Shown piece by piece: positions 7,000 to 63,999 of a stretch of DNA of 64,000 nt. Source of the stretch: Rhodobacterales bacterium (GTDB taxonomy: Bacteria > Pseudomonadota > Alphaproteobacteria > Caulobacterales > Hyphomonadaceae). Positions within the stretch are counted from its first letter, which is position 1. Each line of letters starts with the position of its first letter. The stretch covers positions 50,365 to 114,364 of the forward strand of contig JACXUV010000013.1 in NCBI GenBank assembly GCA_014763715.1, in the 5' to 3' direction. The notes beneath the pieces were generated by a model. That model was not told the origin of the DNA, did no database searches, and was given only the letters and a program-made list of their open reading frames with translations. Made by a program: the position numbers and the translations under genes.

Positions 7000-7014
7000 G
7001 TTCTTTATTTGTTC
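7000..7014. promoter_or_regulatory. Predicted LexA (SOS) box GTTCTTTATTTGTTC
   Basis: Exact GTTC-N7-GTTC, 41 bp upstream of the comM-like start. Confidence 0.65.
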
Positions 7015-7055: not shown

Positions 7056-8606
7056 ATGATGGTCTGCCGGGTTACAACATTTGCGTTTGAGGGCGTCGAC
7101 GCGCAGCCTGTCGATGTTCAGGTGCAACTCACCGGCGGAAATCCGAATTTCCACATTGTCGGCCTGCCGGACAAGGCGGTGGGCGAAAGCCGCGAGCGCG
7201 TGCGGGCCGCCTTTGCCTCACTTGGCCTTGCCCTGCCGCCGAAGCGGGTGATTGTGAACCTCGCCCCGGCGGATCTTCCGAAAGAAGGTAGCCATTATGA
7301 TCTGGCCATCGCGCTGGCCATGCTGGCGATCATGGGCGTGATCCCGGCGGATCAGTTGGAGGCGTATGCGGCGATCGGGGAATTGTCTCTGGATGGCGGT
7401 CTTGGTGAAACGGTGGGCGTGCTGCCCGCAGCCATGGCGGCAGAGGCAATGGACCTGCGCCTGATCTGCCCGGAGGTTTGCGGGGCTGAGGCCGCCTGGG
7501 CGGGTGGAAGTGTCGTGGCAGCGCGCAGCCTGATTGCCCTGATCAATCATTTCACTGGGCGGGAAGCGATCGGCGCGCCGAAAGCGGGCTTGCTGGCAGA
7601 ACCTCCGCCGGGGCCGGACCTGCGCGATGTGAAAGGGCAGGAGGGGGCCAAGCGTGTCCTGGAAATCGCCGCCGCAGGTGGGCACAATTTGCTGTTCTGC
7701 GGACCGCCCGGTTCCGGCAAGTCCATGCTGGCGCAACGTCTGCCCGGCCTGTTGCCGCCGCTCAGTGCGCGGGAATTGCTGGAAGTCTCACAAATTCAAT
7801 CGATTGCGGGCCTGCTGGAACGCGGGCGCCTGTCGCGCACGCGGCCTTTTCGGGCCCCGCACCATTCGGCGTCAATGGCGGCACTGGTTGGCGGCGGCAT
7901 CAAGGCCAAGCCGGGGGAAGTGTCGCTTGCCCATCACGGCGTGCTGTTCCTGGATGAGTTACCGGAATTCCCGGCCCATGTGCTGGACAGCCTGCGCCAG
8001 CCGCTTGAAGCGGGTGAGGCCGTGGTGGCCCGTGCCAACCGGCATGTGCGCTATCCGGCGCGTTTCCAGCTGATCGCGGCGATGAACCCCTGCCGCTGTG
8101 GCGGCGGCCCGGGCGCGGCGGCCTGCACACGTGGGCCGAAGTGCGCCCAGCAATACCAGTCCCGCCTGTCCGGTCCCTTCCTTGACCGGATCGACCTCTA
8201 TTATGACACGCCGCCGGTGACGGCGGTGGACCTTGCCCTACCGCCCCCAACTGAGGGCACGGCTGAAGCGCGTGCCCGTGTGGCGGCTGCGCGGGATATT
8301 CAGGCCGACCGTTTTGGGGAAACGGGCGACGATACGCGCCGGCCGGTCAATGCGGATGCGCCCTTGCCGGAACTGGAACAAGTGGCCCGTCCGGATCAGG
8401 CGGGCGCTACCTTGCTGGCCGATGCAGCCAGCCGTCTCAGCCTGACGGCTCGGGGCTATTCCCGTGTCCTGAAAGTTGCCCGCACGATTGCTGATCTGGA
8501 TGGCGCAGAAGGTGTACGCCGCGTACACATTGCTGAGGCGCTGTCTTATCGCCAGCGTCCGGCCGGGCAGGGGGAAGGCGTCAATGCGGACGCCATGGCG
8601 CGTTAG
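7056..8606 (+). CDS. comM: YifB/ComM-family Mg-chelatase-like AAA+ ATPase
   Basis: [21 protein letters not shown] Walker A, [32 protein letters not shown]-type N-terminus, CRCGG cysteine motif. Confidence 0.93.
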   Translation: [516 protein letters not shown]

Positions 8607-32095: not shown

Positions 32096-32110
32096 GTTCT
32101 GTTTTTGTTC
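32096..32110. promoter_or_regulatory. Predicted LexA (SOS) box GTTCTGTTTTTGTTC
   Basis: Exact GTTC-N7-GTTC, 39 bp upstream of recN. Confidence 0.8.
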
Positions 32111-32149: not shown

Positions 32150-35940
<3,791 letters not shown>

Positions 35941-61973: not shown

Positions 61974-62019
61974 TTCCACAGGCGCGGCGTTAACCCTCTG
62001 TTTACTAAAAACTTCTTGC

Positions 62020-62045
62020 GAACAAGATGAGAACAAGATAGGAAC
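62020..62045. promoter_or_regulatory. Tandem overlapping LexA boxes GAAC-N7-GAAC-N7-GAAC
   Basis: GAACAAGATGAGAACAAGATAGGAAC, two exact alphaproteobacterial SOS motifs sharing the middle half-site. Confidence 0.8.
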
Positions 62046-62064
62046 ATGCTCATCGGAACGGAGC

Positions 62065-62415
62065 ATGAACATGAGCATTGCAGTCAGTTTTCGGGGACGC
62101 TCTGGCAAGGCATGGGACTTCCAGCGTGTTCCAAAGGACGCTCCCTGGGCGCGCAGCCCGGGTGCCGTCATCTTCGCGGCCCCAGACTCGTTCGGCTGGC
62201 GCATCATCCGCGTGATGGAACTGTCCGGCCGGCCGCATGACCTGCAGCCCATCTGGGCGCTGGCAGAGGCGGAACGCTACGGCGCCACGGCCGTGTTCCT
62301 CGCGCTCGAATTCGACGCCCGGGAGCGCAAGCGCCTGGTCGCTGATATCGAGGAAGGGTTCAGCCCGGTCTGTCTGGGTCCGCGTGAGGCGCCGGAAACA
62401 TCGCTTGCTGCCTGA
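62065..62415 (+). CDS. Conserved-looking protein of unknown function, predicted SOS-regulated
   Basis: 115-117 aa; GGAG ribosome-binding site suits the ATG at 62071; directly downstream of tandem LexA boxes. Confidence 0.75.
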   Translation: MNMSIAVSFRGRSGKAWDFQRVPKDAPWARSPGAVIFAAPDSFGWRIIRVMELSGRPHDLQPIWALAEAERYGATAVFLALEFDARERKRLVADIEEGFSPVCLGPREAPETSLAA

Positions 62416-62457: not shown

Positions 62458-63999
62458 TTATTGCTCGGGCGCAGGCCGGTTCAGCGCTGCCTGCGCCTCA
62501 GCCGTCTCGGCCAGCCGGGTCAGCTCGATGAACTCGGCGCGATAGCCGAACTCATCCTCGCCTTTCGCCCCTGCGGCCAGCGTGCGGATCTCTTTCCAGC
62601 CGAAGCCGGGGGAGAGGGCCTCGCCGCCGCGCAGCATTTCCCCGAAGCCTGCCACGGCGGTGGCAAAGCGGGTCCATTGCGGGGCGGCCTCCAAGCTGTC
62701 TGACTTGTCGGCATCGGTGACGGCATGGGTCAGCAGGATGGACTCGGCCTCGCCCGGCGGTTTGTAGCGCAGCTTCACGAAGGCGTATTCGCCGGACGGG
62801 TCGTCTGCGGCGGCTGACTGGTTGCCATAGCGCAGTGGGTCGATCTGCGCGGCGCCTGAGCCTGTGGGCGTGATGTCATAGATCGCTGTCACGCTGGCGC
62901 CTGCGCCGATGTCTCCGGCATCCACCTGGTCATTGTTGAAGTCCGCCCGGTCCAGCATGCGTGTCTCGTAGCCGATCAGGCGGTATTCCGCGACGCGGGC
63001 CGGGTTGAACTCGACCTGGATTTTCACATCGTCGGCAATCGGGAACATGTTGCCGCCAAGGTCGTCCGCCAGCACTTTGCGGGCTTCGCTCAGCGTGTCG
63101 ACATAGCTCGCCGTGCCATTGCCCGACTGGGCGAGTTTCTGCATCAGCGCATCATTGTAATTGCCGCGCCCGAAGCCGAGCACGGAGAGATAGATGCCGC
63201 TCTCGCGCTTGCGGGAGATGAAATCCTCCAGCTGTTCGGAATCCGTGATGCCGACATTGAAGTCGCCATCGGTCAGCAGCATCACACGGTTTACCGCATC
63301 CTTTTTCAGGCCCTGTTCGGCGAGGGAATAGGCAAGGCGAAGGCCCTCACCGCCAGCGGTCGAGCCGCCTGCCTGCAGGTTTTCGAGCGCGGCGACGATC
63401 TTGCGCTTGTCGCTGACCGGCGTCGGCGGCAGTATTTCGCCAGCTGCGCCCGCATAGACGGCGATGGAGATCGTATCGGCCGGGTCCATTTCTTCCAGCA
63501 TCAGCTTCAGCGCCTGCTTGGCCAGCGGCAGCTTGTCCTCGGAATGCATGGAGCCGGACACATCCACCAGCAACGTCAGGTTCACCGGCGGGCGGGCCTC
63601 ATGGTCGATGTCGCGGCCCTGAATGCCGATCTGCATCAGCTGGCGTCCCTCGGCAAAGGGTGAGGGGGCAAGCGTCACATAGGTCGCAAAGGGAGCTTCA
63701 CCCGCCTTTGGCTGCGGGTAGGTATAATCGAAATAATTGATCAGTTCCTCGATCCGCACGGCATCTTTCGGCGGCAGGACGCCGCTCTTCAGGAAGCGGC
63801 GCACATTGGCGTAAGCGGCCGTATCGACATCGATGGAGAAGGTCGAAACCGGCTCCTCGCGGGTCAGCTTCACCGGGTTCGGTTTGACGTCTTCATATTT
63901 GTCCCGGAATTCCGGTTCCGGCGTGGGCATCATCACCATGGCCGGGGGCGGGGCGCCTGCCACAGCCTCTGCGGCGCGTAAGGCGCCTGTCACTTTCAC
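62458..63999 (-). CDS. YfbK-like von Willebrand factor A domain protein (runs off window end)
   Basis: VSTFSIDVDTAAYANVRRFL, LTLLVDVSGSMHSEDKLPLAKQALKLML (MIDAS DxSGS). Confidence 0.92.
   Translation of the reverse strand: MKVTGALRAAEAVAGAPPPAMVMMPTPEPEFRDKYEDVKPNPVKLTREEPVSTFSIDVDTAAYANVRRFLKSGVLPPKDAVRIEELINYFDYTYPQPKAGEAPFATYVTLAPSPFAEGRQLMQIGIQGRDIDHEARPPVNLTLLVDVSGSMHSEDKLPLAKQALKLMLEEMDPADTISIAVYAGAAGEILPPTPVSDKRKIVAALENLQAGGSTAGGEGLRLAYSLAEQGLKKDAVNRVMLLTDGDFNVGITDSEQLEDFISRKRESGIYLSVLGFGRGNYNDALMQKLAQSGNGTASYVDTLSEARKVLADDLGGNMFPIADDVKIQVEFNPARVAEYRLIGYETRMLDRADFNNDQVDAGDIGAGASVTAIYDITPTGSGAAQIDPLRYGNQSAAADDPSGEYAFVKLRYKPPGEAESILLTHAVTDADKSDSLEAAPQWTRFATAVAGFGEMLRGGEALSPGFGWKEIRTLAAGAKGEDEFGYRAEFIELTRLAETAEAQAALNRPAPEQ

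Follow-up and report, generated by a model that had tools for sequence, protein, structure and literature searches.

A small gene behind predicted LexA boxes in Hyphomonadaceae encodes a probable nuclease-dead relative of the UvrC GIY-YIG domain

The roles of many SOS genes outside the model species have still to be assigned, and a small gene of a Hyphomonadaceae bacterium with a Hyphomonas-type genome, a gene for which we found no description in the literature searched, raises two such questions: is it controlled by LexA, and what would its product do in a damaged cell? The gene lies in a stretch of 64,000 nucleotides (the window, whose numbering is used below) and had been singled out from the sequence of that stretch as a candidate SOS effector. 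Comparison with its relatives yields a testable identity, that of an SOS pseudo-nuclease whose operators, probable degron and cell-cycle site are all conserved. The features of the locus are these:

61990–62005, + strand: CtrA-like site, TTAA-N7-TTTAC, conserved in the genus
62016–62021, + strand: candidate −35 element TTGCGA, within the conserved block AAAAACTTCTTGC
62020–62034, + strand: predicted LexA box 1, GAACAAGATGAGAAC, GAAC-N7-GAAC
62031–62045, + strand: predicted LexA box 2, GAACAAGATAGGAAC, GAAC-N7-GAAC, overlapping the candidate −10 region
62056–62070, + strand: predicted LexA box 3, GAACGGAGCATGAAC, a perfect GAAC-N7-GAAC that adjoins the start codon at 62071
62071–62415, + strand: gene for a GIY-YIG-derived protein of 114 aa, predicted to be nuclease-dead (from orthologues, codon pattern and profile links)
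62404–62412, + strand: C-terminal -LAA, candidate ClpXP degron
62458–63999, − strand: convergent VWA-type gene, a synteny marker outside the system

The LexA motif described for alphaproteobacteria is GTTC-N7-GTTC (PMC8565304). In the window, GAAC half-sites start at 62020, 62031 and 62042, spaced exactly 11 bp apart, and form boxes 1 and 2, which overlap by sharing the middle GAAC of the triple. The original prediction had described these two boxes correctly but had missed the third, perfect one, which covers the ribosome-binding site and encloses the Shine-Dalgarno sequence GGAG (62060–62063). It had also placed the end of the triple 19 bp before the ATG, taking the start to be at 62065. The join of box 3 and start codon, GAACATG, is conserved in relatives, which fixes the start at 62071, so that the distance is 25 bp and the protein has 114 aa rather than the ~115 aa first given; the peptide MSIAV, already quoted in that prediction, begins at the ATG at 62071. 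Chance alone would yield, under a first-order Markov model of the window, ~1.5 GAAC doubles but no more than 0.01 triples per 64 kb. The block that contains TTGCGA consists of columns that are at least 95% conserved in the same-genus alignment, and it may act as part of the promoter.

Boxes of the same form are found elsewhere in the genome (G000, 3.55 Mb), which has one match each to lexA and recA. They precede lexA, uvrA/ssb, uvrB (with two boxes), recN, comM and mmcB, as well as a dinB-like polymerase gene, a photolyase gene, rmuC and a radical-SAM gene. Two of these boxes lie in the window and mark what would be two more of its SOS genes:

32096–32110: predicted LexA box GAACAAAAACAGAAC, upstream of recN (32150–33838, + strand)
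7000–7014: predicted LexA box GAACAAATAAAGAAC, upstream of a comM/Mg-chelatase-type gene (7056–8606, + strand)

We built a weight matrix from 11 boxes upstream of repair genes in this genome, including the two in the window. Boxes 1 and 2 scored 17.9 and 17.4, within the span of 12.2 to 26.2 that the repair-gene sites cover when each is left out in turn, and ranked third and fourth in the window, directly behind comM and recN, although the matrix tests mainly the spacer because its sites had been chosen by their match to GAAC-N7-GAAC. Box 3 scored lower (10.4, rank 14 in the window). Other promoters of interest include that of lexA itself (L216, about 2202–2232, − strand), which also has three GAAC half-sites, spaced by 11 and then 10 bp. 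The region upstream of recA reads GTTCCGTAGAAC and has no GAAC-N7-GAAC repeat. A radical-SAM gene (L125:1715–2845) is preceded by the LexA-type box GAACAAAGCAAGAAC, and an identical box occurs at G000:C27:281–295.

If the boxes are operators, they should be kept upstream of orthologues, and they were. Orthologues are present in 58 of 101 relatives, comprising nearly the whole genus and most of the Hyphomonadaceae. Among 41 same-genus loci, which are not independent samples, 40 retain a perfect box upstream in the promoter, and all 41 the one at the start codon. The half-sites of box 2 are 93–100% identical and its spacer averages 77%, with 59% identity in the downstream gap and 53% in the region further upstream. 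The first GAAC of the triple, which opens box 1, is the least conserved half-site (columns 66–93% identical), and the full triple is found in only 23 of the 41 loci, which points to box 2 and the start-codon box as the genus-wide operator. In the other genera of the family, GAAC-N7-GAA[TC] occurs at the matching upstream place in 31 of 32 loci, its second half being GAAT or GAAC, and all 32 have a start-codon box, which starts 15–21 bp upstream of the ATG and within which the position of the Shine-Dalgarno sequence differs from locus to locus. A second family of the order (f3) has putative orthologues too, and two perfect boxes, ~31–37 bp apart, precede 25 of 25 of these. Orthology between the two families is putative and rests on synteny and regulation rather than on the tree, which does not show them as sister groups: the convergent VWA-type gene lies downstream in many Hyphomonadaceae loci and in 15 of the 25 f3 loci, in support of the assignment. 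Comparison of neighbourhoods revealed no operon partner, the upstream DUF2794 and COQ9 genes being kept within the genus only and the VWA-type gene being convergent. Viral contigs yielded no relatives, and there is thus no sign of a phage origin. Phylogenetic footprinting, which spans two families, and the like boxes in front of known repair genes together lend strong support to the original proposal of LexA control, and we consider the gene very probably part of the SOS regulon.

The CtrA-like site upstream of the boxes had been noticed before and called a weak hint. It is present at 61990–62005 as described, but the label underrates it: the form TTAA-N7-TT[AT]A is kept in 41 of 41 same-genus loci (TTAA-N7-TTAA in 15 of them) and, in other genera of the Hyphomonadaceae, in 17 of 32 loci. 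The second half of the window copy reads TTTAC, as against TTAAC in the CtrA consensus; the motif obtained by CtrA ChIP-seq in H. neptunium is TTAA-N7-TTAAC (PMC7200025). In Dinoroseobacter, joint CtrA and LexA sites have been predicted in single promoters, as here, albeit in another alphaproteobacterial order and at other genes (lexA and those for pilus, flagella and c-di-GMP) (PMC6473078). The conservation of the site, the H. neptunium motif and these joint promoters make CtrA input more likely than was first thought, though unproven.

What the gene encodes was less readily seen. The original prediction had recognised no known repair gene, and the 114-aa protein indeed had no match in scans of Pfam and NCBIfam, nor did a PDB sequence search with the Hyphomonadaceae family profile alone give a credible match. 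The protein nevertheless appears to be related to one. A class-wide profile search returned few relatives, all distant, yet these bridge to GIY-YIG domains, and the relatives gained in class- and order-wide searches have readable GIY-YIG motifs. A profile of five relatives matched, among PDB sequences, the GIY-YIG domain at the N terminus of UvrC (E=7e-5), while single relatives gave weak matches to Pfam GIY-YIG, below the Pfam cut-off. Pairwise profile–profile comparisons, whose E-values hold for one comparison, connected the Hyphomonadaceae family to f3 with 98% probability and f3 to an intact GIY-YIG family, paralogue B, with 99%; the direct comparison between Hyphomonadaceae and paralogue B gave 92%. 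The protein therefore most likely descends from a GIY-YIG domain, by a link that runs through intermediates. In its AF2 model (pLDDT 80, pTM 0.70), a hairpin at the N terminus precedes a predicted core of strand-strand-helix-strand-helix, the order expected of a GIY-YIG domain. A Foldseek search of the PDB with this model returned no significant match, which leaves the fold a prediction.

The active site has fared differently in the three groups. We examined six catalytic positions: the Tyr of GIY, the Tyr of YIG, Arg, His, Glu and Asn. All six are intact in 11 of 11 paralogue B proteins. In f3, the Tyr of GIY and the Arg, His, Glu and Asn are kept in 25 of 25, and Phe replaces the Tyr of YIG. 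In the Hyphomonadaceae all six positions are replaced, none of the 58 proteins keeping any of the residues, and we accordingly class the protein as a derived, nuclease-dead relative, a predicted pseudo-nuclease, rather than as a GIY-YIG nuclease. It nonetheless appears to be under strong constraint, with substitutions mostly at codon position 3 and with W26, W43, R44, G53, D57, P60, W62, R69, G71 and D92 invariant in an alignment of 48 sequences.

The C terminus is conserved as well. All 58 Hyphomonadaceae proteins end in -AA (33 -LAA, 14 -IAA, 5 -MAA, 3 -VAA and 3 -RAA), as do 21 of 25 f3 proteins, 19 of them with -WAA; the corresponding counts are 0 of 11 for paralogue B and 14 of 240 for a background of ORFs taken mechanically from these loci. 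The tail before the -AA is variable in sequence and modelled by AF2 with low confidence, so that the protein ends, like ssrA-like ClpXP substrates, in a hydrophobic residue and two alanines after a flexible tail. The genome's own tmRNA tag, ANDNFAEGELMAA, ends in -LMAA. Judged by these features, the -LAA end is likely to be a ClpXP degron.

We arrive at a reading in which the gene is repressed by LexA and induced by damage, and encodes a rapidly destroyed, nuclease-dead GIY-YIG modulator of repair; as a whole, we give it a probability of roughly 0.6. LexA on box 2 (and box 1) would block the promoter and LexA on box 3 would cover the region of the ribosome-binding site, until RecA-driven cleavage of LexA after damage freed both operators; CtrA would probably contribute from its conserved upstream site. 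Rather than cutting, the product would probably bind, either to DNA that is damaged or branched or to a partner of the GIY-YIG kind (UvrC or the intact paralogue). In this way it might modulate incision during repair or shield the DNA or the partner. Its -LAA end would probably pass it to ClpXP, and, like E. coli RecN, the protein would then be gone once the SOS response is over. For the role in repair, the part of the original suggestion of a 'checkpoint or repair modulator' that is still the best guess, we consider the odds about even. Some observations count against the reading as a whole: box 3 is weak in the matrix and overlaps the ribosome-binding site, and the promoter box ends in GAAT in other genera.

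Two known systems resemble the proposed one in part. Cho is SOS-controlled in E. coli. It is a one-incision relative of UvrC in excision repair (PMC1564403), and the protein is distantly homologous, via the intermediates, to Cho and to the N-terminal GIY-YIG domain of UvrC; unlike them it is small and free-standing, without their C-terminal domains, and in the Hyphomonadaceae it has lost the active-site residues. The recN gene of E. coli has three SOS boxes, and RecN carries a signal for ClpXP at its C terminus (PMC10714372). The present gene likewise combines several boxes with a protease signal (here a candidate one) that would confine the protein to damaged cells, although the 114-aa GIY-YIG-derived protein is unrelated to RecN, an SMC-like ATPase.

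The alternatives concern mainly what the product does. Its target might be the intact paralogue B that the genome also encodes, which it would inhibit or dimerise with, rather than UvrC or general repair. The two genes co-occur in most Hyphomonadaceae genomes searched, which have two matches each, and the G000 copy of paralogue B (L174; G000:C112:39504–39794, − strand), which shares a contig with recA and lies ~5 kb from it, is preceded by a perfect TTAA-N7-TTAA but not by a LexA box. What speaks for such a partnership is, however, co-occurrence, and a role has yet to be assigned to paralogue B; we think this alternative unlikely. The form TTAA-N7-TTWA recurs upstream of several other copies of paralogue B.

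Another possibility is that the protein serves, as SidA does, as an SOS-induced checkpoint that halts division for a time and is then degraded by a protease. SidA and DidA of Caulobacter are division inhibitors and very small membrane proteins. They belong to the same order and are likewise small products of the damage response, SidA being under LexA. DidA is SOS-independent (PMC4211646). LexA control and likely rapid turnover would suit a reversible brake, and the CtrA-like site would suit a link to the cell cycle, but descent from a nuclease domain points instead to a nucleic acid or a repair partner, and what is predicted is a soluble alpha/beta protein of 114 aa without a membrane segment (maximum 19-residue hydropathy 0.99). 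The length, the hydropathy and the model rule against a very small membrane peptide of the SidA/DidA type, leaving a division inhibitor of that kind unsupported, and a checkpoint role in general strikes us as a slim prospect.

Still less probable is that the protein is an active SOS nuclease like Cho, which is a UvrC-like GIY-YIG endonuclease, and works with a rearranged active site: GIY-YIG descent favours it and the residues kept in f3 make an enzyme plausible there, but the replacement of six out of six catalytic positions in 58 of 58 Hyphomonadaceae proteins argues against it in this family. Least probable of all is that the GAAC repeats are not LexA operators but belong to the promoter or the ribosome-binding site and have some other origin. 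Box 3 does overlap the ribosome-binding site, and LexA binding is a prediction. Against this alternative stand the form of the repeats, which is that of the boxes at this genome's repair genes; the promoter box, which conserves its half-sites and not its spacers; box 3, in which GAAC-N7-GAAC persists although the spacing from the ATG and the position of the Shine-Dalgarno sequence vary; and f3, which has a two-box arrangement of its own.

The non-cutting repair modulator can be cast in a more specific form, which we offer tentatively as the less probable step. A former GIY-YIG SOS nuclease may have become, in the Hyphomonadaceae, a dedicated, self-limiting repair regulator that kept its LexA operators and degron and gained, in place of its active site, a new conserved surface (W26, W43-R44, G53, D57, P60, W62 and R69), with which it would compete with or escort UvrC or the intact paralogue, under joint control by LexA and CtrA. 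If so, the gene would be an example of an enzyme that lost its chemistry yet kept its damage control, and Hyphomonas, for which CtrA ChIP-seq has been published, would be a simple system in which to study how damage and cell-cycle signals meet at one promoter.

The survey also turned up variation in the families themselves. Genomes of f3, including G090, G483 and G540, have 3–4 paralogues of the GIY-YIG-like family each, some with an altered YIG. Five near-complete genomes of one genus of the Hyphomonadaceae, g4 (G044, G053, G517, G522 and G551), match neither the SOS gene nor paralogue B, an apparent joint loss. In one copy of the gene (L123:1979–2452), similarity ends at residue 71 and the frame runs to 158 aa without an -AA end; this is a frameshift or an assembly error. 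Four loci titled Candidatus Sulfopaludibacter or Acidobacteria (L098, L099, L100 and L105) have Hyphomonas-type genes with 69–73% identity and the same synteny, and are probably mislabelled metagenome bins.
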